A stretch of 63,089 nt of DNA from a virus, in IMG/VR virus record IMGVR_UViG_3300015198_000001, positions 1 to 63,089 of that record, one strand, 5' to 3'. The translations under genes were made by a program, and so were the position numbers. This document shows, piece after piece, positions 9,330 to 31,173 of this stretch. Each line of letters starts with the position of its first letter. Positions within the stretch are counted from its first letter, which is position 1. Below the pieces are notes generated by a model. The model saw only the letters and a program-made list of their open reading frames with translations, was not told where the DNA came from and ran no database searches.

Positions 9330-12239
9330 CTAGGGAACGGGCTGGCTGTCCAGTCTTTTATCAAGCAGCCATTGCCGGGTCGCCGTGCCAAAATTAGTAG
9401 GCTGGGTGAGGGCTGCATCGCTGAACAGATCGGGCGACCACGTTTGGGTCTGAGCCCAGGCAAACCAACCAATAGGCGGATGCAGAGAGCCTTCGCTTGG
9501 CTCCAGTAACTGCCGCAGGGAGGGTGGGGTCGAGGTGGTGGTGGCCCAGGTATTGGTGGCACTGGAGGGGTCGGTGTTATCGCCCCATTCAGTCATCATA
9601 ACTGCCTGCCCGCTGGCGAGACCTTGGCTGATCTGGTCCCGATTTGAAGAATAAGATTCCCACTGACTCCGATAGGCGTGAAGTGCATAGGCCAGATTGG
9701 TGCCAGTCAATGGGCTCGCCGTTGCCTCGCCTACCCAGGCGCTGTAAAAGGGAGTTGGCACAACGACGATATTGTTAGCTCCGGCTGCTCGAATAGCGTT
9801 GACCGTCTCCTGAATGATCGGCTTTTGAACTGCCCACGACCCAGATCCACCCGCGTAGGGGCCAACGTCTTCGCTTTCATTCCACAATTCAAAGATCACC
9901 TGTGGATGGTTTGCCCACTGCGAGCGCGCCATCCTAGACCAGAAATCAAGCATGCGTGCGTGACGCAAAGGGTGTTGCGCGGGGCCGAAGTCAAAGTCAG
10001 TGACTACTACGTAGAGCTTGGCGTCTACCGCAGCCTGAATAGCAGGATCCATAACCTTAGATTTCCAGTCGTTGAAGTTGCTCAGCGCCTGGGCGGGCGT
10101 GTAATCGATACTCATATATTGCCACCAGAGAAAGTTGTCCGGGTAAACAGCACCAACACTATAATCAGTCACGGTCGCGCCAGTGAATGGCTGAGTGCTG
10201 CCGCTGGTCCCGAACTCGCCAATGTAAAGCCACTGATTGCTCATTGCGTCGGTTGAAGGAACGGTCAAGCTAGTTCCAGATGGCCCGCCATTCCACGTGT
10301 ATGACGGTCCAGCGCCTGAAGCAAATGTATTGCGATAAAGGTGCATATCGTTGCCATTACCGTAACCAGAAACCACGTCACCAAGCGCGTAGGTGCCTAG
10401 ATTCCAAGCGGCCCCACGATCTGCGCGCCAATTGATCTTTACCGCACGGTAACGACTCCCGCCAAAAGTAGCTACTGCACCTTCAATCGATACGGCATTA
10501 GCCATCCAGGCACTGAAGGTGACGGTGTCAGGCATTGCGTATGGCCTGTTTTCGATTGTGTAAAGCCGTTTCGGGTCTACACAGGGGAAACGCTCGAACG
10601 CAAGGCGGATTGCAGTTGGATACCATTTGTTGCCGGTAGCGTCAGTCTGCGAAGCCAGATGTACATATTGTGGCACCGTCATCGGCAAGTAAGTACCTGG
10701 GTTGGCCTTATCGCCATAAACCATTCCCATCCCCATTGTAGCGACTCCGCGCAGTATTACTTTATTGCCATGTGGATCGAGCAGCATGCCACCAGTGATC
10801 TGAAGTGCTGGCGGGCCGAGACCGCCAACGCTAGCTGAGGCTGTAACGGTGACAGAGACAGAGGCGGTCTTAGTGGCGTCTGCCCGACTGGTCGCAACAA
10901 CGTGGCAAGTGGCCGGATTAGGCACCATTAACGGCGCTGTGTACTGACCACCCGAGCTAACTGCGCCGCATACAGGTCCCTCCTGTAAAACCCAGTTAAC
11001 GGTAGTGTCGGAAGAGCCGCTGACGAGAGCACTAAATTGTAACGCTGCCCCAGCAATGATATTAGGTGAGATTGAAACGGAAACAGCGGGTGGCGGTGCA
11101 CTCGCAACCTCAACGAATCGCCATAACCCGGCGAGGCCATTAGGAGAAACAATCACGTAGTTCATTCCATCAAAGGTGACCGCAGTGTGCTTAGCTCCAT
11201 TGCTCATTGTAGCGGGGATCGGGTCTGTGATCCACGTCTTATCGTTGCTGACCGCCGCATGGGCGAGTGCAGCTCCCCAGCTGCCATTAGTAGCCCAACC
11301 AAACGAGGTGTAAAGAGTGCTCGGCGTTCCAACTACGCCATTTTTATTGCCGCCGAGAATGTTGCTCCATGTCGCCCCGCCATCTGCCGTTTTATAGACG
11401 CCCCCGGTCGCACCAATATAAGCTACGCTATTGCCTGCATTGAAGAGCTGAGAGTTACCGTGGAAATGCTCGAAGGTGGCAGCCTGTGTCCAGCTCGCTC
11501 CCCCGTTTGAAGTGTGCCAAACACCTTTGGTGTTGCTAGTCCACTGAGAAATAGATACCCAATTAGTCCGTGTCGTAGCTGCAACGCCGGTATCAATGAA
11601 GAAAAGGTATAGCGAAGTGCCAACTCCAGGAGGTGTAGGCACGATCTTCCAGGTGCTTCCGCCGTCGATTGACTCAGCAGCCTCAGAGGTACCGTGGAAT
11701 CCAGTGATGAGGTGTGTACCGTCATATGGATCTACTTCAAGGCTGTAAGGATCCTGGCCATTAAGATAGCCATCGGCAAAATACGGGAACGATGTTTTTA
11801 CCCAGTTAACGCCACCATCAATGGACTTAAAAATGCCGGTCTGAGTGCCATAGCCGGAGACGGTCCACAGTGTTGGCGCTGTAGCTGGATTGCGCGCTTT
11901 GTTGGTGTCGATGGCCAGCGCCCAGGGTCGGCCAAAATCAAGGACAGTGCCGTTAGTTCCTGTGCTGATTTTGCTCCAGTTAACGCCGTAGTCGGTTGAT
12001 TTCCATATTCCCTGGTAATCAATTGAAGCGTATAGATCGCTCTGACGGGCCGGGTCCACAACGACAACCTGCACGCCGTAGTTATTGTTGGTTCCACCAA
12101 AATTGGGGCTGAGGTTCATCCCTGCCGGGGTCACATTTGTCCAGACACCCACCGGGGTGCTGGTCGATGCGGGAGAAGCGGGGGCAAATAGGCTTGTGGC
12201 AGAGATAGCAACTGCTAGTAGAAAAGAACGTAATGTCAT
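9330..12239 (-). CDS. Secreted GH5 cellulase-like protein with BNR propeller and Ig-like domain
   Basis: 969 residues in four parts. Residues 1-24 are a signal peptide (LLAVAISATSLFAPASPAS). Residues 30-375 hold sialidase/sortilin-type propeller blades with repeated S-X-D-G-G-X-X-W boxes (SIDGGVNW, SIDGGSTW, TSNGGASW, TADGGATW). Residues 380-470 are an Ig-like module with a SSGGQYTAP turn. From about 480 there is a GH5-like (beta/alpha)8 domain interrupted by a probable small binding module. The likely catalytic glutamates are E788 (ELWNE, acid/base) and E884 (MMTEWG, nucleophile). It probably cleaves beta-glucan or host exopolysaccharide outside the cell. AAGGAG precedes the ATG. The signal peptide argues against a virion tail protein, although a virion role is not excluded. 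Confidence 0.75.
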   Translation of the reverse strand: MTLRSFLLAVAISATSLFAPASPASTSTPVGVWTNVTPAGMNLSPNFGGTNNNYGVQVVVVDPARQSDLYASIDYQGIWKSTDYGVNWSKISTGTNGTVLDFGRPWALAIDTNKARNPATAPTLWTVSGYGTQTGIFKSIDGGVNWVKTSFPYFADGYLNGQDPYSLEVDPYDGTHLITGFHGTSEAAESIDGGSTWKIVPTPPGVGTSLYLFFIDTGVAATTRTNWVSISQWTSNTKGVWHTSNGGASWTQAATFEHFHGNSQLFNAGNSVAYIGATGGVYKTADGGATWSNILGGNKNGVVGTPSTLYTSFGWATNGSWGAALAHAAVSNDKTWITDPIPATMSNGAKHTAVTFDGMNYVIVSPNGLAGLWRFVEVASAPPPAVSVSISPNIIAGAALQFSALVSGSSDTTVNWVLQEGPVCGAVSSGGQYTAPLMVPNPATCHVVATSRADATKTASVSVTVTASASVGGLGPPALQITGGMLLDPHGNKVILRGVATMGMGMVYGDKANPGTYLPMTVPQYVHLASQTDATGNKWYPTAIRLAFERFPCVDPKRLYTIENRPYAMPDTVTFSAWMANAVSIEGAVATFGGSRYRAVKINWRADRGAAWNLGTYALGDVVSGYGNGNDMHLYRNTFASGAGPSYTWNGGPSGTSLTVPSTDAMSNQWLYIGEFGTSGSTQPFTGATVTDYSVGAVYPDNFLWWQYMSIDYTPAQALSNFNDWKSKVMDPAIQAAVDAKLYVVVTDFDFGPAQHPLRHARMLDFWSRMARSQWANHPQVIFELWNESEDVGPYAGGSGSWAVQKPIIQETVNAIRAAGANNIVVVPTPFYSAWVGEATASPLTGTNLAYALHAYRSQWESYSSNRDQISQGLASGQAVMMTEWGDNTDPSSATNTWATTTSTPPSLRQLLEPSEGSLHPPIGWFAWAQTQTWSPDLFSDAALTQPTNFGTATRQWLLDKRLDSQPVP

Positions 12240-13279: not shown

Positions 13280-13639
13280 ATGAGCCACGAAGACAAGGTC
13301 TTTACGCTGATCACCTATCACCCTTCTGTTATCTACTTCCGGCGCGAGAAGTTTCGCGACTCAAGGTTTGAGTACCGGGAAGGGCTTACATTTGCTGAGG
13401 TAGAGCTAGATGTTATCGCCACCATGTTGAACGGCAAGGATGAGGAGAGCCCCCGCTTTATCATCCAGTACCAGGGGAGGGCAATGGCATCGCACAATAG
13501 CGATAGCGGTGAGGGCTACAACGGACCAGACTCACGCTTTGATCTGGAACCCGAAGATCCCGGGCATAATGCCGCTATGGAGGCACTTGCGACGGACCTT
13601 GATCTGATTTTTGCTCGTGGAAAAGAGGCTGTCGCTTGA
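13280..13639 (+). CDS. Hypothetical protein (119 aa)
   Basis: ATG 13280 lies six bases after GGAG; ATG 13268 is an in-frame alternative. Predicted alpha/beta (KVFTLITYHPSVIYF) with an acidic C-terminus. Its last 65 bases overlap, tail to tail, the end of the minus-strand head-morphogenesis gene. No terminator is visible between the convergent genes. Confidence 0.5.
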   Translation: MSHEDKVFTLITYHPSVIYFRREKFRDSRFEYREGLTFAEVELDVIATMLNGKDEESPRFIIQYQGRAMASHNSDSGEGYNGPDSRFDLEPEDPGHNAAMEALATDLDLIFARGKEAVA

Positions 13640-16235
13640 TAGTTTGATCAGAAACAACCGGCACATGGGTATAACCCGCCTCTATAGCGGCTGCTAGCCG
13701 GTCGTGTCCCTCCACAACATCGTGCATAATGTTACCACCACCCAGATCTACTGGGGTGGCACGTATCGGTGCGACCTTGTGCGGCATCTTGTTGAACATA
13801 TCACGGATCTTGCCGAGTTTCCAGCTGTCGGCAGGAGCCACAGGAAGCCCTGAGACGTGCGACAGTGGCACATGGGTAAAACCGGGCGCTTCTGGGGTCC
13901 ACGTCTTCACAGCGGGCTCTGAGGGGCCTTCTACGTGCCCTGCGGCTTGGTACAGGGGAAGAAACACGGGATCCGCCTCGTTAGGCTTAAAGTGCGGTCT
14001 AGGCTGGCGGATAAACTTCAAGCCGCCCTGCCCACTGTATTTGCGCACCATTTGGTCATCCATGACACCGTCGAGGTGCTTCTGTTGGATAGGAACGGTG
14101 CGACCTGACTCATGTACAAGCTTGGTAGGGTGACCGCCAATACCTTTATTGTCAGGCTTCCAGCCAAACGGTTTCATGTAATCAGCTAGCTCTGAGAAGC
14201 GCAAGCCCTTAATGAGATCGTCTTCGTATTTCTGTAACTTCTTGCCATTACGCTGAGCCTTTAGCTCATCATGCTTTGGTGAGATATAGGTTACCATGCC
14301 ATCGTTGGTGAACCCATACCCTTGCATAAGCGTTACCATAGTACAGTTATGCGATACGATCCCTTGAATTACAAAGCTGGCATCATCCTCGACAGTAATA
14401 TCGTACAATCTAGCCAACCTTGAAACCTTCCCTTTAGGGACCTTAACAACACGTAGTATGGGCACGCTCTGGAACGTATATCCATCCATTGAATTTAATG
14501 CGACACGGCGAATATCAGTGAGTACAGAGGCGGACCCGGACTCCTCCGAATAACGTAGTACATGCCATCCTTGAGAATGCATGTACTCGTCACGCAACCT
14601 ATCTTCATCCTCTTTCTGTTCCCTTGTTTTCTTTCCCTTATATACATCCATCCAGTGACCGCCTCCGTCCCACTCAATGACTGTCTTGACTGACGGGATA
14701 GCGATATCGCCAAAATACTTACCAATTCGGTATTCCAATTCGGCGTCCATGTATTGTGACTTGACAAGATCAAACAGACTACGCTGGTCTTTACTTGGAC
14801 CGCCGCCATTAGCATAGAGCGCCTTGCGCGCTTTTTCGATACCAGCTGGCGTACGTGCCCCCGAGCGATATTGTTCAAGCATAGATTCGCGGTTTTTGTT
14901 CGATACAGCTACACGATGCTTATCGGATTCCCACTGAGCAGCCGAAAGTCGCTTACTATGACACGACCGCGAGCAGGTATCGGGGATTTTATATCTTTGA
15001 ATCCATCGCCCTGACTCGCTTCGGTAAGCCGATTGCCATGTAAACGGACTGTGACACACACTACAGGTCAGGGCGCTCGTGAGCGTGCCGCTCCTATTTT
15101 TTTCTTCGTTCGTGACACGGATACTCTCAGTCCGTCGTTCTCGCTCCATAGCCCCAACTACCCGCCCCTTTGCAGGTCCGGGCTTCCCAACATGGGAAGA
15201 TCCTACACATCGAACGGAACAAAATCTTTTATTTGGCTTTTTGATATCGTGAGGAAAGGGGGTATGGCAATATTCACACTCCTTAAATAGATATTGGAGG
15301 CTATCCGAAGGTTCAAGTCCGTCCGCTCTGACCCAACCTCGTTGAGTCAACAGTAGATGGTCACCTGTCACACGCAATTTATGGATCCTATCTTGCGGAG
15401 TTTTGAATTCCACCCTAAACAAATCTTCATTAGACGGAATACCGTATTTCCCAAAAGTAGATAACACCCTCTTAAATTTACCTGTATGGGTCAATACGCG
15501 GTCGCCAACTACCACATTTTTTAGTGAGACAGTACCCCGCTCTGTAAGTACAGGTGCGCTCCCGTCATACACGCACCTACAGTGAGGGTGTAGCCCGCCT
15601 AGCTTGGGGTTGTCTTCACCCTTCTTGTGGTAACCGTGTCCTAGCTCGCTTACCTTCCATACACGAGGAGTCACTTCGTCGGGCAACAGATGTAGGCGTT
15701 TGCACTCATTACAGAGTGCTCCGTCGTGCACCACGATAAAGTACACAACTGGGTCTTCGATACCTACTGACTGATTAACCTTGATAATGCCATCGAGTAC
15801 AGATACGTTCTTAGCGGTAGCAGTCTCTGAAGTAATAATACGCTCGACATTGGATGTAATGTCACCCCATAGGTCTGCGATCTTGCCGCCCAGTACGGTC
15901 TTCCAATCAGTATCGATACCATTGACCGAGGCATCGGATAGGAATTGGCGTATCTCAGCTAAAGTCTTAGCCTTGGCCGAACCCTTGACTGCATCCAGGT
16001 AGGAGTCGGCAATATCGATGAGTCCATTAAGGGTATCTACGTTAGGTTTGGCACCTTCCTCAGTTGCGGCTGCCTCGAAGACACCCGGCAGGCTGAGAGG
16101 GTGCTGATAGGATACCTGGATACGGCTTTCCACCGACTGTGGACCGAGGAATCTAGTCTTAGCACGGTTGAATAACTCGTCAATCGCGGCTGAGATCTCC
16201 TTGACCGCTTTACGACTCAGATTGTGCTTTGGCAT
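13575..16235 (-). CDS. Head morphogenesis protein (Mu gp30/SPP1 gp7-like) with intein
   Basis: 886 residues as translated, 476 after removal of the intein (residues 221-630). The N-terminal half has the minor-head-protein motif: HDGALCNECKRLH, then GGLHPHCRC, the cysteine/histidine cluster of the Mu F/SPP1 gp7 family, whose members sit with the portal and help assemble the head. The intein is inserted exactly in this cluster, between R220 and C631. The C-terminal 130 residues carry a ParB/Srx-like segment (EGHDRLAAAIEAGYTHVPVV), often fused to such proteins. The gene starts three bases downstream of the portal stop. The ATG at 16235 is the only sensible start. Confidence 0.8.
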   Translation of the reverse strand: MPKHNLSRKAVKEISAAIDELFNRAKTRFLGPQSVESRIQVSYQHPLSLPGVFEAAATEEGAKPNVDTLNGLIDIADSYLDAVKGSAKAKTLAEIRQFLSDASVNGIDTDWKTVLGGKIADLWGDITSNVERIITSETATAKNVSVLDGIIKVNQSVGIEDPVVYFIVVHDGALCNECKRLHLLPDEVTPRVWKVSELGHGYHKKGEDNPKLGGLHPHCRCVYDGSAPVLTERGTVSLKNVVVGDRVLTHTGKFKRVLSTFGKYGIPSNEDLFRVEFKTPQDRIHKLRVTGDHLLLTQRGWVRADGLEPSDSLQYLFKECEYCHTPFPHDIKKPNKRFCSVRCVGSSHVGKPGPAKGRVVGAMERERRTESIRVTNEEKNRSGTLTSALTCSVCHSPFTWQSAYRSESGRWIQRYKIPDTCSRSCHSKRLSAAQWESDKHRVAVSNKNRESMLEQYRSGARTPAGIEKARKALYANGGGPSKDQRSLFDLVKSQYMDAELEYRIGKYFGDIAIPSVKTVIEWDGGGHWMDVYKGKKTREQKEDEDRLRDEYMHSQGWHVLRYSEESGSASVLTDIRRVALNSMDGYTFQSVPILRVVKVPKGKVSRLARLYDITVEDDASFVIQGIVSHNCTMVTLMQGYGFTNDGMVTYISPKHDELKAQRNGKKLQKYEDDLIKGLRFSELADYMKPFGWKPDNKGIGGHPTKLVHESGRTVPIQQKHLDGVMDDQMVRKYSGQGGLKFIRQPRPHFKPNEADPVFLPLYQAAGHVEGPSEPAVKTWTPEAPGFTHVPLSHVSGLPVAPADSWKLGKIRDMFNKMPHKVAPIRATPVDLGGGNIMHDVVEGHDRLAAAIEAGYTHVPVVSDQTIKRQPLFHEQKSDQGPSQVPP
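14346..15575 (-). mobile_element. Intein with Vsr/DUF559-like nuclease (in head morphogenesis gene)
   Basis: 410 residues from Cys221 (CVYDGSAPVLTERGTVSL) to VSHN at residue 630, with Cys as the +1 residue. Splicing blocks are visible: the N-terminal Cys, block B-like VTGDHLLLT, RLYDITVEDDASFVIQG near the C-terminus, and final His-Asn. There is no LAGLIDADG pair. Instead there are two Cys zinc motifs (CEYC...CSVRC near 320-343 and CSVC...CSRSC near 391-425) and a nuclease core VIEWDGGGHW with RDEYMHSQGWHVLRYSE (about 519-565). This matches DUF559/Vsr-type PD-(D/E)XK enzymes. It inserts into the conserved HPHCRC site. Confidence 0.85.
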
Positions 16236-16238
16236 TGC

Positions 16239-19200
16239 TTAGCTCTTTGGTACAAAGTGCTCAACGGTATCCATAAAGGATTTTAGGGTGGCATCTCTTT
16301 CTTCATGCCACTTGTCCATAGTCGATTTAACAGTCTTACGCTGTTGTGCAAGTACTCGGCGCTTAGAGGGAGTTAGTTGTTTCTCTGTTTTAGTTAGCAA
16401 TCCCATGAGCTGATCTAGACCACGAGTCAAGTCTGACTCTTCCTGCTGAGGAGGCTGAGCTTGCCCTTGACCGCCCTGGGGAGGCGCACCGCCTTCAGGA
16501 GGTTGACCTTTGCCGTCAGGGCCCTGGCTTGGCTGACCACCCTGAGCCGCTTGGGCTTGGGCTTGCTGAGCTTGCGCTTGCATCTGCTGTTGTTGCATAA
16601 GGTTATTAACCTGACTGAACCAGTACTGATCTCGACGGTATGCCAGAGAGGGGTCCTTGCTTGCCCCTTCTCGTCCGCAGAATTTTTCCAGTATTTCCCC
16701 TACTGTAAAGAGGGAGTTTATGTATTCCCAAATAGTAGGGTTAAGTGGTAAGTCGCCTGCCCATTCTTCACCTAGCGGATCCTTCTCAACTCTTTCACGT
16801 ACCTCGTCGTAGGTCATGTGAATAACCATGTCCTGCTGAAGACGTACTGACTCCTTCTCGGCTGTTTCCGCGTCAAGACCAACTAGCTTGATTACACACA
16901 GTTTTGCTAGGTTTTCGTCAATAAGTGGGAAAATGCGTGAGTTGAGGAAGTCCTGGAACTGGCTAATGAGTGGCCTTATGCCTACATCGCGATGGGCCTC
17001 AAGTTTGTATTCATTGTTGCTGTTATGTACTTGAAATCCTTGAAGAATTTGCGCGTGCTCTTTGTCGAATACCTCAACATCAACCATGGGCACTACGGAG
17101 CCATGTACAACTAGCTCAGTGACAGGCTCGACGTGATAGTCACACATCCACGCAGGAACTTGTCCAATTTCAGATAAAAACTCCTGAAGCTTATTAAATG
17201 AAACAGTACGCTTCCCTTGAATAATTCCCTTAATATTATCCCTAGTCCTTTTTCCCCAAGACTTAAACAACGTAGTCTCAATTAAAGGTCCCAGTAGGCG
17301 AGCGGCTAAGGTAGTGGGGGCAGCGCCTAAGCTCCATTTTTGGTCACGGCGACGTGCCAGTTTGTGAGATTGAATAAACCCAATCTGTTCCCAGAACAAG
17401 TTTTTATCTTTGACATACAGCTGTTTCTCTAGTTCTTTATCTCCAAAAGAACATCGCACGATCCCATTACAAGCAAGCGTCCTGATTCCCAGCCCGAGCA
17501 ACATCTGTCCCACCTGTTCCCGAGTACTATCAGCCTGCATGGTCAGCACTATGGCCCCTTGCTTAGTCGCGTGTCCATCGGCAGAAAAAAGCCCCTTCAA
17601 GAAAGCCTTACGGTATTCAATTGGTAGCACATGGAAGACAGCAGGGATAGACTTGTCCCTAGAGCTAAACGAAAAACCGATCTCTTTCAAAAAAGCACAA
17701 AACTCATTACTATAAATGGTGTTGGTAATACGTGTTTTGGCGACAGTCTTAAACCCGTATTCAGATTTGAGCTTAGTTGCTTCTTCTTCCGTAACAACAC
17801 GCTCGTGCTGCTTAACGTCAAACCCAAAGTCCGTCAATGTTTTTGCGTGGCTCTCCCAAATGTCGCGTTCCTTGTCATGGTGGTAAAACAACTTGAGCCC
17901 GCCACCATGAACGTTTGCTACCGGTTCGATTAAAGTACCGTCACCAATTGACCAGCCAAGAACCTCCATCATGGCAGGGGTAAACACTTTACCCCTGAAC
18001 ATTGGAATTTTAGAGGCATCACCGGGTACAGGTTTTGCATTGACAACCAACAGGTCGCCTACACGTAACTTTTCTTGACGCTTCCAGGCTAGGTCCCCCT
18101 CATCCGTCAACACTCGAAAGCGATGGTCGGGGCTTGTTTTTAGGGTTAGGTTTCCTGCACGAGTTTCGCATAGGATTTTATCGCCTGTGCGGAATAGGCG
18201 AGCAGCTGTGTATTCCGTTCCGGTCCAGACGCGAACCGGCACTTCGTTTTTGATGTTACCTAGTAGGTCCTTCGCTGACACCGCGCCATTGTCAGTCCAA
18301 AGTATGCTATCCTCTTGAAAACACTCTGACAATGCTTGGTTATTGGTACCTCTAGAAAGGTGAGCGTAGCCCGGAAGCTCTTCCGGGCTCATCTGGAATG
18401 CTGACAGAATCACCCGTGCATTGCTATCAGACAGATACTGAAACTCCATGTCTCGCGAGCTATTATCAATAGGAGCCCATGTGATCTCATCTTGGGGACC
18501 AATACCAAAGACAGGCATACGCCATGCGTTGTTTACGCTATTGATAGAGGCATTAAACTGTTGACGAATAGTAGCTACAATGGCTGGACTAACGTCTTCT
18601 GACTTGATGATAAGCATGCCACGTGCTGCACGGCCTGCTTGGAAGTAAAGCTTATTATGGGTAACGATATTGATGTGGGTAGTAACTGCCGCAATCATTG
18701 TGTCGATTGGGGTAAGTGGGTAGCCACACAGTTCCACGTCCGTGACTGGGTATACGTTATGAACTACGCATTCATCTGGAGTAAAGGCCTGAACTGGGCG
18801 ACCTTCGATCACCTGAACATGGGCATACTCGCCATGCTCCATCTTGTCTGGAATGAATTTTTCGTTCTTCAGTTGTTCAAGTAACAGACGAGCCTGTTTA
18901 CGTACCTGCTCGGCAGCTTTCGTTTGTGGAGTGGCTTTATAGATAGTGCCTGCATCGATAGGGCGGAAAGAGTGAAACTTTTTTTCACCATCCTCAGTTA
19001 CATGGATAATTTCCGTAGCAAAGCGTCCTACAATAACTGCATTGCGTGTTTGCTGGTATAAGAACTGGGAAAGGGTCATGCGGTCAGCATCTGCCCACCC
19101 AGCTACACGTCCACACATAGAGAGGCAGTCGCGGGCCTTCTCAATACGACTCTGGATCTCATCTTTATAGTTCTTTTCTTTGTCATTCAAGACACCCGGC

Positions 19201-25263: not shown

Positions 25264-25273
25264 ATTATAGCGT
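25264..25273 (-). promoter_or_regulatory. GCTATAAT-class promoter
   Basis: On the minus strand TACGCTATAAT has its TATAAT box at 25269-25264, 16 bases before the ATG of the GroES-like gene. It lies inside the end of the sigma-factor gene. Confidence 0.6.
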
Positions 25274-26323
25274 AATTCCACTCATCTTGAGCAATTTTTG
25301 TTCAATAATCGATAACTGAACGATTGCACGGCTCGTTACCTGACGAGCCTCTGTCTCTTCAAACCTGATATCTGGTTGGCTTGAGCTATCAGCAGCGAAA
25401 CGGTTTATAGCCGACATTTCTTCTTCTTCACCATGCATATACGCTCGGGTTGCACAGTGAGCCGATACACAAGAAGCGGCTGACATAAGGTCTGCTATCT
25501 CGGAGGCGTTGGTGTTCACCCCTCCCGCACCGGGCCATTCATTTACCCCCCTGGCTAATTGCTCATAGTTTACAGTAACGTCTACCTGATTTTTGATTAG
25601 CTTGTTCGCCCTATACAACTTACGCTTGTCGGATGGGTAAAAATGCACAAGTGTCTCGCTGTAGTTTTCGATGCAGTTTCCTAGTATCCTACCTATAGCA
25701 ACGTGACGAAAGGTCTGGCTATAGGGCAGGACAAACTTGTCAATAGCCGCCATCAATCCTTCACAGGAAATCTGTACAAGGTCCATGTAGGTCAAATGGG
25801 CTCTGGGTGTACCACCCCAGAAGAGGCGTGCCCTGGCGATGGCAAGCGGCATGTTCATTTCGACCAATTCTATTCGCAGCTCCGCTATCTCGGTAGCTAG
25901 CTTGCCAAGCTTTCCATTCACGGGCCAAGGTCGGGCTCTCATTGCAAATAAGACAAACTGGTAATTAAAGTGAAACTTGTATAAGCTTACGTCAGCTCTT
26001 AGCTTCAATGCCTTAGCTATCTCTTTTGTAAAAATTGGCTGGCGTTCACGGAAGAAGGGCCGGGCAGCTAAAATGTTTCGCTTTTCATCGCAGATCATGC
26101 GTACAAATTTACGGTAGACGCCTGGGCCCCAGTAATGCTTTATCAGGGTGTGACGGAAGGTCGTTTCCAGCTCCACCAGCTTCTCCACCTGACGCTTCTG
26201 GCGCTCTACTAGGGTTTCCTCATTCAAGTCGCCATAACGGGCTATAGCTCGTTCTAGGGACGTTGCAAATTTTCTGAAGTAGTCGTCTGTAATTACATTA
26301 CGCTTATTTCTGATTATAGCCAT
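25265..26323 (-). CDS. Divergent sigma-70-like RNA polymerase sigma factor
   Basis: 352 residues from ATG 26323, chosen because GAGG lies just upstream; the frame is open to 26392 inside the helicase gene. Residues 156-222 form sigma region 2: MNMPLAIARARLFWG (2.1), YMDLVQISCEGLMAAIDKF (2.2, matching the D-L-x-Q-x-x-x-x-G-L-x-x-A-x-x-K-F core) and TFRHVAIGRILGNCIENY (2.3-2.4). The C-terminus (SRAIVQLSIIEQKLLKMSG) is a reduced region 4. It would direct host core polymerase to phage promoters, most likely the GCGCTATAMT class. It is second in the operon after the helicase, whose promoter has that motif. Confidence 0.75.
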   Translation of the reverse strand: MAIIRNKRNVITDDYFRKFATSLERAIARYGDLNEETLVERQKRQVEKLVELETTFRHTLIKHYWGPGVYRKFVRMICDEKRNILAARPFFRERQPIFTKEIAKALKLRADVSLYKFHFNYQFVLFAMRARPWPVNGKLGKLATEIAELRIELVEMNMPLAIARARLFWGGTPRAHLTYMDLVQISCEGLMAAIDKFVLPYSQTFRHVAIGRILGNCIENYSETLVHFYPSDKRKLYRANKLIKNQVDVTVNYEQLARGVNEWPGAGGVNTNASEIADLMSAASCVSAHCATRAYMHGEEEEMSAINRFAADSSSQPDIRFEETEARQVTSRAIVQLSIIEQKLLKMSGITL

Positions 26324-26336
26324 AGTAACCTCTGTG

Positions 26337-28868
26337 TCAATTCCATTGTACACTCTCAACCGGCCCGTAAATATCATTGTAAATATCGACACGAGCCAGA
26401 GCGTGTTTTTTAAGTTTCGGTATGTTAGTTACATTAAAATCAAAAACGTTACATTCCGTCTTACCCTCGAAGAGGCGGGTAACCCTGCCTACACTCTGCT
26501 TTACTTCTACTTCACTTTTGCCGCCACGTAAGTAAATCATACAGCGAACTGCTTGTATGTCCGTACCAATAGCTATACAAGAAGTGCCGACTAAGATGGG
26601 CAGCTTACCTGCATTAAATTCAGCAATTAACTCCTTCGGATCACTTTTGTGGTAAATGACTGGTACATTCTTCCTATTTTCGGCAGTTAGACCACCATGG
26701 GCAAACTTGGTGGCATGATTTAGGTATGGCATCAAATGTTTGATTTGCTCCACCTCTTCAACTAGGATTAAAGTAGGGTGACCAAGAAGGGAGACTGATT
26801 TGTTGGCTATGTCAGCTGCAATCCTGTTAACACGATTGTTGTAATACAAGTGTTGACGGGTTAATTCATTACTGTCACCGGTTGCACTGCTGTCGCTATT
26901 GGTCTGTACCATATGAAAGATAGGCCTTGAGAGATAACCTTGATCTACCCCTTGTCTTACCGTCATTGTGTACACAATCTTATTGGTAATGCCTTCCAGT
27001 AACATGTCAGCGCCATCTCCTCGTATTTGAGTACCAGAAAAGAAGAACCTATACGGGGCAGAACGTAGCAGACCAAAACATACTATAGCTAAGGTCTTTG
27101 CTGGACAGAGATGAGATTCATCCGCTAAAAAGACCTTGGCTTGAGAAAGATATTTGTACGCTTCTGAATCAGCAGCTACTCTAGCTAGAGAAGCTGCTAC
27201 TGCAATTACAAATAGCTTCTTGTACTCCTTGGTTCCGTCAAAGTAAGCACCAACATTCTTACGACCAAAATGGTATTGAAAGTCTTTGTGCATTTGCTGA
27301 GCAATAGAGACTGAAGGAGTCATAACAACTGTGCGTAATCCGTAATGCTTAGCCAAGTTACGAATAATGGCGCTCTTGCCCAGTCCTGTATTGTGCGTTA
27401 CCAAAAAGCTATCTGTCAAATATAAGTGATCAGAGTCTAGAATAAACCCAAAATACTCTTCATATTCAGATACCTGGGTAACCGAAAACCCAAAGCTAGT
27501 ACAATCTTTTTTTTGTTTTCTTGGTTGCAGTTTTTTCCTAGGCAAACGTACGGGTAGCTGGGATAAGTTACCAGACAGCGTTACTCTGTGATATTCCCCC
27601 TCAGTACCACGTTGCGACTTTTTGGTACATAGTGCCATACTGGCTCGAAAGCCCAAAGAGCGCGCTAGATACACTACGTCCGTAGATAGCTGCTTCGACT
27701 TTGAAATAAAATCATAACAGCCCTCAGCGGCACTGCCATCCGTATCGATTAAACCCGCCAAAAACTGCATTCTAGTTTCGATAGAGCCTGTCAGATATAT
27801 AAATGGAATGTACTTTGTACTACACGTAACACTTCCTAACCCTAAATGTCTAATAATCTCCCAGACAGGGTTCTCCTGTTGGGTTCCCACATTACGAGAA
27901 ATTCTGTAATGTGGGGCTGTTTTTTTTATACCAGCAATACTGACTTTACAGTTAAATTTGGCGGCAGTATCATAAATCACATCCACAATCTCCTTGTCCA
28001 TCGTGGTCAAGGCTGGAGCAGCAGAATCGCCATCCCCAAGCCATGCCCCCAAAAAATAAGGGTCTAGTGGAACGGGTTTGGGATCCGGGAACACAATAGG
28101 CCCCGGTGAAAAGGTTTTGTATAGATGCTTATACTTTTTACTTTTGTTGAGATAGTGCTCTACGGTAACAAAGTCGATAGGATTAGTCCCCCTGTAATCT
28201 GAGCGCTTTTTTTGTTTTTTGGGGGTAGTTGTACCACGATTGGTACGACGAAGAGCTAGAAGATGGTGACCATTTACATACATAGTCTGCCCGTTGACCG
28301 TCTTAACACAAAACATTTTATCAAAGCCATTCCTTAATTCTAGGACTGTTCTAGGCTTAGAGTCAGGTCCCATAAGCCTATCACCTACCTCCACTTTCTC
28401 AGCACCCTTGATAGAACCATCATACATGAGAATTCCATCACCACGTCTATGACAACCTATCTCAACTGCACCATGATTAACTGCAATCAATTGTTCAGCA
28501 GCCTCATCCTGGAAATACCGGTTCTTAAACTTTGGTATGTTATGCCATGGCATAGATTCTGGAGAAGGGTAAACTACCTTGTTTACGATCTGATCCTGAA
28601 ACTGAGAAGCTAGCAGATGACCTAGCCCAGATGGTATTGTTTGATCTGGATAAAGTAAACACTTCTCCCTAACAGCCCTTAATTGATCAAGTTTTTTTTT
28701 CCATTCTGCTTGGCCGTATTTATTGAGAAACCAACTTGAATTACGGTGCTTCTTAATTTCATAGTCAACGCTAGTATCAACGTATGTTAATACGCCTTTA
28801 GCCTGCTCAAGGCGCTTACCTTCGTAGCCGCTTAGTTTGATCAGCGTTGGTTCAATAATATTTAGCAT
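26337..28868 (-). CDS. SF2 helicase (UvsW-like) with intein in the P-loop
   Basis: 843 residues as translated, 488 after removal of residues 139-493. The exteins give YFQDEAAEQLIAVNHGAVEI followed by GTGLGKSAII (motif I restored by splicing), VVMTPSVSIAQQM (Ia), FLADESHLC (II, DESH), FFFSGTQIR (III) and the C-terminal RecA domain with SVGRVTRLFEG (VI). It resembles T4 UvsW-type branch-migration helicases that process recombination intermediates. A CCGCTATACT promoter and CAGGAG site precede the ATG. Without splicing it cannot bind ATP. Confidence 0.85.
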   Translation of the reverse strand: MLNIIEPTLIKLSGYEGKRLEQAKGVLTYVDTSVDYEIKKHRNSSWFLNKYGQAEWKKKLDQLRAVREKCLLYPDQTIPSGLGHLLASQFQDQIVNKVVYPSPESMPWHNIPKFKNRYFQDEAAEQLIAVNHGAVEIGCHRRGDGILMYDGSIKGAEKVEVGDRLMGPDSKPRTVLELRNGFDKMFCVKTVNGQTMYVNGHHLLALRRTNRGTTTPKKQKKRSDYRGTNPIDFVTVEHYLNKSKKYKHLYKTFSPGPIVFPDPKPVPLDPYFLGAWLGDGDSAAPALTTMDKEIVDVIYDTAAKFNCKVSIAGIKKTAPHYRISRNVGTQQENPVWEIIRHLGLGSVTCSTKYIPFIYLTGSIETRMQFLAGLIDTDGSAAEGCYDFISKSKQLSTDVVYLARSLGFRASMALCTKKSQRGTEGEYHRVTLSGNLSQLPVRLPRKKLQPRKQKKDCTSFGFSVTQVSEYEEYFGFILDSDHLYLTDSFLVTHNTGLGKSAIIRNLAKHYGLRTVVMTPSVSIAQQMHKDFQYHFGRKNVGAYFDGTKEYKKLFVIAVAASLARVAADSEAYKYLSQAKVFLADESHLCPAKTLAIVCFGLLRSAPYRFFFSGTQIRGDGADMLLEGITNKIVYTMTVRQGVDQGYLSRPIFHMVQTNSDSSATGDSNELTRQHLYYNNRVNRIAADIANKSVSLLGHPTLILVEEVEQIKHLMPYLNHATKFAHGGLTAENRKNVPVIYHKSDPKELIAEFNAGKLPILVGTSCIAIGTDIQAVRCMIYLRGGKSEVEVKQSVGRVTRLFEGKTECNVFDFNVTNIPKLKKHALARVDIYNDIYGPVESVQWN
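27390..28454 (-). mobile_element. LAGLIDADG intein in the helicase P-loop
   Basis: 355 residues from Cys139 (CHRRGDGILMYDGSIKGAEK) to LVTHN at 493; Thr494 is the +1 residue. Motifs: VEVGDRLMG, VNGHHLLALRR (block B), FLGAWLGDG and FLAGLIDTDG (two endonuclease dodecapeptides), GFILDSDHLYLTDSFLVTHN. The insertion falls inside Walker A (EIG / TGLGKS), one of the most frequent intein sites in phage ATPases. Confidence 0.92.
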
Positions 28869-29192: not shown

Positions 29193-29441
29193 GTGACACT
29201 ACTGCCTAACGAAAAGACGCTGTTGTCCTTGGTGGAGCACGGGTTGGGTAGAGCTACCAACCATACCCTGGCAGCCCAAGTCGGGGTTAGTCCCCGACAG
29301 CTGAAGAGATACCTTGCTCGTCTTCGAGACTTGAAATTGGTAACTATTACCACTCATAAATATCCCTGCTACGGAGCATGGGTGAATCAAAGGAAAATCA
29401 ATGCAATACAAGAAGGTTCAGTCAGTCTCAAAGGTGGTTGA
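29193..29441 (+). CDS. Small winged-helix/HTH protein (82 aa)
   Basis: GTG start at the predicted transcription start. Residues 8-55 form a helix-turn-helix of MarR/LexA-like winged type (LVEHGLGRATNHTLAAQVGV and SPRQLKRYLARLRDLKLV) followed by a short wing (TITTHKYPCYG). It probably binds DNA and may regulate the divergent region directly upstream. Its last 41 bases overlap the GroEL gene in another frame. Confidence 0.6.
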   Translation: MTLLPNEKTLLSLVEHGLGRATNHTLAAQVGVSPRQLKRYLARLRDLKLVTITTHKYPCYGAWVNQRKINAIQEGSVSLKGG

Positions 29442-31173
29442 AGTTAAAGGCAAAACCCTTTCGGTCAAGGTACTGGATACCATGGCTAAGATCAGCTCTA
29501 TCGTAGGTGCAACCCTCGGGCCCGGTGGCTCACAGGTCTTGCTCGAACGCCAGGAGAACGGAATGGCCCCTGCTTTGACCAAGGATGGGGTCACCGTATT
29601 CAGGTCGCTGGGCTTCAAAGATCCCATTGCCCATAATATCATGGAGGCAGCTCGTGACGCCTCTGTACGCACGGCTAATGAGGCAGGAGACGGCACCACA
29701 ACGGCTACCGTACTTTCTGAAGCGATTGTCCGCCTAATGGACGGGTATGTACGCAAAAACCCGAAGGTGAGCCCCCAGAAAATTGTACGTCGCCTTCTGG
29801 CAACGTTCACTTCTGTCATTGAGCCAGCCGTACATTCGTCTTCTTATCATGCCGACCTTACCACCGACGAGGGCCGTGCGCTTCTTATGTCCGTAGCTAA
29901 AGTGTCAGGTAATGGTGACGCTGAGCTAGCCGATGCAGTGCTGAAGTGTTTCGACCTAGTCGGGGATGACGGCAATGTAGCTATTAGCGAAGTGTCCGGC
30001 AGTACAGGGTATGAAGTTGAAAAGATCAAGGGGTACCCAATTGGGATTGGGTACGAGGATTCATGTGGAAAGTTTTACCCACAATTTCTAAACAGCAATT
30101 CACAAAAGACTATACTTGATAATCCACAATTTGTTATCTACCACGGCAGGATCACGGACATTGGGACACTGATCGCGGCAATGGAAAAGGTGGGGCAGGC
30201 CTGGAATGAGAGCATGCTACCCCAGTACGAAGGGCCTATTGTGCGGCATAATGTAGTTCTTGTTGCAACAGGCTTTAGCGAATCGGTCCTTGCTCAGCTG
30301 TCGGTTAACTTCTCGTCTGCTAATACTATTAACGTCTTCCCGCTTCTCGCACCTCAGTCACCCCTCCCCCAGGGACAGCTTGATTTTCTACTAGATATTG
30401 CAGCTGTTACCAATGGATGTGTTTGGGATCCTATAAGCGATCCCCTAGAGCGTGCAGACATTAGCGACTTTGGTACAGCGGACCAGTTTGAGTGTGGTCG
30501 ATACCGTTCAACCATTTTTGGTTACGCTAACGAAGGAGTTTTGTTTAAGCGAGTAGACGAACTGAAGGCACAGAACACTCAGTTTGATGGAGCCATCTTA
30601 GAGCAGAGCATTTTGGGTGAGCGCATTGCAAAGCTGGCGGGAGGTATTGCCAAGCTTAAGGTGCGTGGCTCTTCCAATGGAGAGCTACGTGAAAAGCGTG
30701 ATAGAGCTGAAGACGCGGTGTGTGCAGTACGTGGTACCATTAAGCATGGGTGTCTGCCGGGCGGCGGTTGGATGCTTGTTAATCTAGCTCGTCTAATCGA
30801 CCAACAGAATGACGTGATGCTATCTGAAGTGCTTGGCGCAGCCTTACAGGTGCCCGTCAAGGTTTTGCTGCACAATGCAGGTTACAACGCCGATGAGATA
30901 GATGAAATTATTGGTACTATTTACGTGTCCCAAAAAACTGACGTATACGATGCACTTGAAGGCAAGTTTGTACCATCTTTTAATGTATTAGACAGCACTC
31001 CAGCAGTATTGGAAGCCATTCGTAACTCCATCTCAATTGCTTCTCTACTGGGCACTTTGGGTGGTTGTGTAGTTTTTGAAAGAGACGCAGAATTTGAGCG
31101 ACGTGAAGCAACCGAAACTAACCAGTTCTTACGCGACGCAGGCGCAGAAGACCCTGCAAATGAAAGAGCCTAA
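29401..31173 (+). CDS. groEL: Phage-encoded chaperonin GroEL
   Basis: 590 residues, longer than bacterial GroEL (about 548). Equatorial-domain motifs: GATLGPGGSQVLL (residues 36-48), ALTKDGVTV, and NEAGDGTTTATVL with the ATP-hydrolysis Asp at residue 97. SGNGD and the apical VEKIKGYPIGIGYED follow, and KHGCLPGGGWML is the C-terminal nucleotide-binding loop. The usual GGM tail is absent. It folds substrate proteins in a double ring with ATP and would need a co-chaperonin (host GroES or the candidate at 24840). AAAGGA precedes ATG 29401. Confidence 0.93.
   Translation: MQYKKVQSVSKVVEVKGKTLSVKVLDTMAKISSIVGATLGPGGSQVLLERQENGMAPALTKDGVTVFRSLGFKDPIAHNIMEAARDASVRTANEAGDGTTTATVLSEAIVRLMDGYVRKNPKVSPQKIVRRLLATFTSVIEPAVHSSSYHADLTTDEGRALLMSVAKVSGNGDAELADAVLKCFDLVGDDGNVAISEVSGSTGYEVEKIKGYPIGIGYEDSCGKFYPQFLNSNSQKTILDNPQFVIYHGRITDIGTLIAAMEKVGQAWNESMLPQYEGPIVRHNVVLVATGFSESVLAQLSVNFSSANTINVFPLLAPQSPLPQGQLDFLLDIAAVTNGCVWDPISDPLERADISDFGTADQFECGRYRSTIFGYANEGVLFKRVDELKAQNTQFDGAILEQSILGERIAKLAGGIAKLKVRGSSNGELREKRDRAEDAVCAVRGTIKHGCLPGGGWMLVNLARLIDQQNDVMLSEVLGAALQVPVKVLLHNAGYNADEIDEIIGTIYVSQKTDVYDALEGKFVPSFNVLDSTPAVLEAIRNSISIASLLGTLGGCVVFERDAEFERREATETNQFLRDAGAEDPANERA

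Follow-up and report, generated by a model that had tools for sequence, protein, structure and literature searches.

The window, by which we denote the whole 63,089-nucleotide stretch of the viral record IMGVR_UViG_3300015198_000001 that was analysed, carries on its minus strand the gene of a MuF-type minor head protein that is interrupted by a long in-frame insert. The features of the locus are the following (a slash within a motif marks an insertion point throughout the text):

13575-16235, minus strand: ORF of 886 aa, MuF-type minor head / head morphogenesis protein
15576-16235, minus strand: N-extein of the MuF-type protein, ending HPHCR; 47% identity to the intein-free Mx1 protein with a gapless junction
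14346-15575, minus strand: predicted intein of 410 aa, from Cys1 to Asn410, then Cys+1; homologs at the same site in L030, L003 and L086
15288-15575, minus strand: N-terminal splicing half, residues 1-96, with Block A (Cys1) and Block B (TGDH, pattern TxxH); matched by Hint / Intein_splicing models and the Spl DnaX mini-intein
15207-15278, minus strand: zinc-like cluster 1, residues 100-123, CxxC...FCSxxC (FCS-like), predicted DNA-binding module
14961-15065, minus strand: zinc-like cluster 2, residues 171-205, CxxC...CSRSC, predicted DNA-binding module
14541-14795, minus strand: DUF559 / EDxHD (Vsr-like PD-(D/E)XK) nuclease domain, residues 261-345
14346-14414, minus strand: C-terminal splicing half, Blocks F and G (RLYDITVEDDASFVIQGIVSHN) with His409-Asn410; matched by TIGR01443
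13575-14345, minus strand: C-extein, starting CTMVTLMQGYGF and running about 220 residues beyond the end of the Mx1 protein

In gene direction the ORF reads ...GGLHPHCR, followed by CVYDGSAPVLTERG...VRVTGDHLLLTQRGW...RLYDITVEDDASFVIQGIVSHN and then by CTMVTLMQGYGF..., such that the enclosed 410 residues coincide exactly with positions 14346-15575. These are the coordinates that a first-pass annotation of this DNA had given, and they mark precisely the span from Cys1 to Asn410 between HPHCR and CTMV. The splicing residues are canonical (C1, TGDH, H409-N410 and C+1). For the intein C-terminus model TIGR01443 a score of 24.6 bits was found, exceeding the cut-off of 15.6, and the Pfam Intein_splicing model matched with an E-value of 2.3e-6 and 27.9 bits, under its curated cut-off of 35.8. 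The joined exteins aligned with the intein-free protein of Myxococcus phage Mx1 at 47% identity (5e-93) without a gap at the junction, which bears out the earlier placement of the insertion in the HPHCRC motif of a MuF-type head gene. The Mx1 protein comprises 258 residues, is uninterrupted at the site (HPHCRCSMTTLLPGFGF) and matches Phage_Mu_F (PF04233) at 20.1 bits, under the cut-off of 29.6. The gene order terminase, unknown, portal and MuF-type gene is common to Mx1 and the window. As the alignment with Mx1 indicates, removing the insert in frame restores a conserved head protein. Judged by its motifs and its seamless junction, the segment 14346-15575 is a class 1 intein predicted to splice in cis.

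Introns are the setting from which EDxHD nucleases are best known (PMC3943268, PMC12350094), so that the insert might also be a group I intron whose ORF is in frame or, alternatively, a domain inserted permanently into the head protein. This we consider very improbable: the reading frame is open across the entire insert, the intein Blocks A, B, F and G are present, Cys/Ser1, His-Asn and Cys+1 are retained in distant relatives, and the insert interrupts a highly conserved motif. As far as sequence comparison and structure prediction tell, the locus very probably holds a class 1 cis-splicing intein of full length whose reading frame includes a DUF559/EDxHD homing endonuclease, in the MuF-type gene of a phage related to Mx1.

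Further genes of the window were recorded alongside. In the portal gene, 17022-18323 (minus strand) is occupied by a 434-residue LAGLIDADG intein (NQALSE/SNNEYK), and the corresponding site is empty in the Mx1 portal. The third intein of the phage, of the PI-SceI-like (Hom_end) type and ending VTHN/TGLGKS, lies in a DEAD/ResIII-type helicase gene (26337-28868, minus strand), probably in its Walker A motif. Beside the head genes, 9330-12239 (minus strand) encodes a protein of 969 residues in which beta-propeller-like repeats, with a weak match to Sortilin-Vps10, precede a GH5 cellulase domain (66 bits); this protein is possibly a host-polymer depolymerase. A phage GroEL chaperonin (29401-31173, plus strand; PHROG 5725, 6.8e-75) and a sigma factor-like protein resembling FliA/WhiG, under the curated cut-offs (25265-26392, minus strand), are found as well.

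Within the intein the two zinc-like cysteine clusters that had been pointed out earlier are present, with the spacings C100-x2-C103-x15-C119-x3-C123 and C171-x2-C174-x26-C201-x3-C205. All eight cysteines are invariant in the window intein and its same-site relatives L030 and L003, and the four of cluster 1 are retained even in L086, from which the nuclease is deleted. Cluster 2 of L030 matched the zf-FCS family (PF06467) at 20.8 bits, just short of the cut-off of 22.4. Zinc-type DNA-binding modules have been described for phage homing nucleases (PMC3943268, PMC12350094), and the CapR-like EDxHD enzymes combine zinc modules and a nuclease in a comparable manner (PMC12350094). By analogy, the two clusters together with the helical linker are most simply read as DNA-binding modules.

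Both motifs on which the assignment of the nuclease had been based were found in the intein, VIEWDGGGHW at residues 299-308 and GWHVLRYSE at residues 336-344. The DUF559 model (PF04480) scored 26.0 bits, exceeding its cut-off of 20.6, which was also passed by L030 (33.5 bits), L003, L054, L087 and L091. The D, ExDG and GWxVLR motifs of the DUF559 family (PF04480; 3hrl) are common to the window nuclease. A profile built from the nuclease domains of six intein-borne relatives was searched against all PDB sequences and returned the DUF559 protein 3hrl (8.7e-9), I-Bth0305I (3r3p, 0.0032) and next AbaSI (0.72). From the same six-relative alignment the nuclease domain was modelled with AlphaFold2 at a pLDDT of 86.9, with the order alpha-beta-beta-beta-alpha-beta. 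In a Foldseek comparison of this model with the PDB, I-Bth0305I (3r3p) came first, with a probability of 1.00, a TM-score of 0.54-0.61 and a modest best E-value of 0.006, and 3hrl and Vsr (1cw0) were near the top. The window nuclease thus has both its predicted fold and profile-level sequence similarity in common with I-Bth0305I of the EDxHD family. Fold matches in a viral library were DUF559, restriction-type and homing enzymes. A model of the whole intein, computed from two sequences, reached a pLDDT of 33 and was discarded. The residues D290, E301, D303, D325 and D329 are invariant across the six intein-borne relatives, and D290, E301, D303 and H307 across the three same-site inteins retaining the nuclease.

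The first-pass annotation had called the nuclease DUF559/Vsr-type. Its DUF559/PD-(D/E)XK part stands, given the score over the cut-off and the I-Bth0305I-like fold, whereas the Vsr part does not hold by sequence: "Vsr" is better replaced by DUF559/EDxHD, as the Pfam family of Vsr mismatch-repair enzymes gave no match at E<=1 in the window intein and is resembled in fold only. We thus describe the nuclease as DUF559/EDxHD by family and Vsr-like in its modelled fold, and by sequence not as a Vsr mismatch-repair enzyme. HNH or another common homing family, the outcome that had been named as speaking against the annotation, was not what the HMM search returned: DUF559 was over its cut-off, and the HNH and LAGLIDADG Pfam families had no match at E<=1 in the window intein. 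Two PHROGs titled "HNH endonuclease" do match, phrog_1271 in the zinc region and phrog_559 in the nuclease part. The HNH label of phrog_559 was dropped, as this family has been typed as a VSR endonuclease fold (PMC11878797). Taking the I-Bth0305I-like fold into account, an HNH or other common-family nuclease is scarcely credible, and this reading can be regarded as already refuted at the level of sequence and predicted fold.

The same intein lineage occupies the same HPHCR/C site in three other viral contigs, where it is complete (L030), partial (L003/L098) or devoid of its nuclease (L086). The 169,567-bp record L030 contains a whole intein of 414 residues with 57% identity to the window intein; L003/L098 contain the 3' three quarters of an intein at 51-61% identity. 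The L086 intein has 205 residues and is 65% identical over the aligned part. Residues 149-355 or so are absent from it in frame, such that the splicing blocks and cluster 1 are retained while cluster 2 and the nuclease are gone. By sequence, L086 has the form expected of an intein that has lost its nuclease. Bacterial genome scans gave matches to the nuclease part only and revealed no relative of the window intein; a plasmid scan gave DUF559 proteins and one match to an intein N-terminus. The plasmid members are free-standing and lack a Hint domain, unlike the window intein. Among the other candidates, L004 and L022-L024 were chance matches and no inteins, L088, L093, L094, L096 and L097 resemble the splicing part only and are other inteins, and the nuclease relatives of Geobacillus virus E3 and Psychrobacillus phage Perkons were not seen within an intein.

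Nuclease-deleted relatives, i.e. L086 and, at the neighbouring site, L089, raise the question whether the splicing part of the window intein works while its nuclease is a decaying or inactive remnant of an element that is now vertically inherited. A glutamine at residue 264, at the start of the nuclease helix where L030 has glutamate, would fit such a decay. However, L003 and L087 have glutamine at this position too, as have the free-standing phage enzymes L007 and L013. Compared with L003, the nuclease segment is moreover better kept (61% identity) than the zinc region (39%), and the acidic and His residues as well as all eight cysteines are invariant. We therefore regard an inactive remnant as unlikely.

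Evidence for movement comes from a pair of contigs of the sister lineage, the occupied L098 (IMGVR_UViG_3300029908_001571) and the empty L099 (IMGVR_UViG_3300029922_000007, reverse complement). From the end of the fifth post-insertion codon onward the two differ by 1 mismatch in 9,154 bp, while the first 14 bp 3' of the insertion site hold 5 differences (TGCTCGTTATCTCAG vs TGTTCTTTGACGCAG). Where two sequences are otherwise almost the same, mismatches crowded next to an insertion are the signature that co-conversion leaves in double-strand-break repair. The pair thus bears, on the 3' side, what appears to be the signature of recent homing, in the sister lineage and not in that of the window itself. 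L098 starts inside the intein, therefore the 3' flank alone is visible and a chimeric assembly has to be considered, in which case recent mobility would be unproven. A join at shared k-mers poorly accounts for 5 differences in 14 bp followed by 1 in 9,154, and the MuF C-termini encoded by L098 and L099 are identical except for one residue, so that we judge a chimera to be quite unlikely. Near-identical contigs with and without the sister intein suggest that this intein family still jumps between phages.

Among 60 MuF loci taken from viral contigs, the HPxCRC motif was uninterrupted in 55 (45 of 49 clusters at 95%). Inteins occupy this motif at two positions, six bases apart. HPHCR/C is occupied in the window, L030, L003 and L086. 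HPH/CRC or HPN/CRC holds LAGLIDADG inteins in L016/L017 and L064; HPN/CRC also holds members of the broader lineage of the window intein, one, in a distant MuF gene, with Ser1 and a DUF559 nuclease of 28.8 bits (L087:5998-7002, 335 aa) and one with the nuclease lost (L089:6001-6684 / L090). The LAGLIDADG inteins of L016 and L064 lie two codons upstream of the window site and carry a nuclease of a family different from DUF559. Those in MuF genes (L016, L017 and L064) and in the window portal have class 1-like splicing residues, as does the window intein. The MuF gene of Gordonia phage Barsten has an intein ahead of CRC as well (HEVIN/CRC), in which no nuclease domain was found. The insertion in HPHCRC had been described as unusual; the insertion itself is confirmed, but the site is less unusual than thought because LAGLIDADG, EDxHD or nuclease-free intein lineages sit at HPH/CRC or HPHCR/C. 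The broader lineage uses both positions (HPN/CRC and HPHCR/C), which lie two codons apart.

Similar nucleases occur also in inteins of helicase genes. In L091/L092 a UvrD-like helicase is interrupted at VVDE/CQD by an intein of 299 aa, for which Intein_splicing (61.2 bits) and DUF559 (55.9 bits) are both over their cut-offs. The DExH-helicase inteins (DE/CHH) of six cultured phages (Vibrio CP-T1, 1.088.O, 103E44.1 and 159E43-1b; Pseudomonas MR14; Corynebacterium phi673) are overlapped in the +1 frame by a nuclease ORF that includes zinc-type clusters (L104 2093-2845, L105 2144-2884, L106 2213-2860, L107 2063-2854, L108 and L109 2171-2854), with DUF559 scores of 45-50 bits in the five that were scanned. 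In these inteins both frames are stop-free over 215-263 codons, and the third frame holds 15-24 stops. Synonymous shuffling of the nuclease codons introduced 5-14 stops into the intein frame, and zero stops were obtained in at most 0.15% of 2,000 shuffles. Between divergent phages the identity is 38-56% in the nuclease frame vs 22-42% in the intein frame. A further arrangement is seen in L054:5989-8084, where a MuF gene is broken at QFL/CDEC by a split intein. Its ORF1 comprises the N-extein, the N-half and, fused to the latter, a DUF559 nuclease (23.1 bits); the overlapping ORF2 begins with a 35-residue C-half ending GVINHN/C. This split arrangement comes from one contig, and a sequencing frameshift is a possible cause.

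A tree of 17 nuclease sequences, with the 3hrl row taken from the profile-search alignment, was weakly resolved. The split between MuF-borne and helicase-borne nucleases had a support of 86/86, which is not firm, and suggests separate lineages. Tentatively, as a possibility that falls a little short of being evenly balanced, we propose that DUF559/EDxHD nucleases entered inteins repeatedly and are found there in at least four layouts. The nuclease is part of the intein reading frame in contiguous inteins (window, L030, L087 and L091), joined to the N-half in the split intein of L054, read from an overlapping +1 frame of an intact intein in the six cultured phages sampled, and secondarily lost in L086, leaving a mini-intein. 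On this view the window intein would mark the end of a capture route that turns a free-standing homing gene into a domain of an intein.

In 2009 Dassa reportedly described a Vsr-like homing family between the halves of split inteins (fractured genes), in group I introns and as stand-alone inserts. Such fractured genes share with the window the kind of nuclease and the location in phage genes, but consist of two ORFs and a free-standing nuclease where the window has one ORF. L054 comes nearest to this arrangement, except that its nuclease is fused to the N-half. Known EDxHD enzymes are intron-encoded, free-standing or, in fractured genes, located between the split-intein halves, whereas the window nuclease is fused in frame inside a contiguous intein. 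For the overlapping nucleases, the nearest published case that we found is the "hidden HNH" of ShiLan (PMC11855218), a homing nuclease that, as in the CP-T1-type helicase inteins, lies out of frame within its host gene. The ShiLan enzyme is, however, an HNH nuclease without a splicing domain, whereas the CP-T1-type ones are EDxHD nucleases nested in a recognisable intein. In passages of two reviews (PMC7765530, PMC8966425) LAGLIDADG is the commonest intein nuclease, and the EDxHD/Vsr-like kind is not among the intein nucleases of these passages. A DUF559-containing gene is listed without detail among cyanobacterial intein-containing genes (PMC9403480), and an EDxHD intein of the contiguous kind may have been reported before.

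From these data the following cycle can be envisaged. The Hint domain (residues about 1-96 and 380-410) would excise itself via Cys1, Cys+1 and His409-Asn410, upon which the exteins would rejoin as HPHCR-CTMV and restore the head protein. The freed intein would bind the DNA of the conserved intein-free MuF allele through its two zinc clusters and the helical linker, and the PD-(D/E)XK-type domain would cut this allele. In a mixed infection, repair of the double-strand break from the intein-bearing genome would then copy the intein into the rival phage, along with a small number of neighbouring bases. For the individual stages, the architecture, the nuclease family, the seamless junction, the polymorphism in the sister lineage and the nuclease loss in a relative are read from sequence, while splicing, DNA binding, cleavage and repair are steps that we infer.

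Different inteins use two sites, separated by six bases, in the HPHCRC motif of MuF proteins, which marks this motif as a hotspot of intein insertion. An in-frame EDxHD intein, its same-site relatives, a near-isogenic pair of occupied and empty contigs and a nuclease-deleted relative together make up an almost complete, testable homing cycle. This cycle would belong to a family of nucleases for which introns and split genes are the main known settings, and the enzyme of the window is possibly a compact nuclease that its zinc modules guide to a long target.
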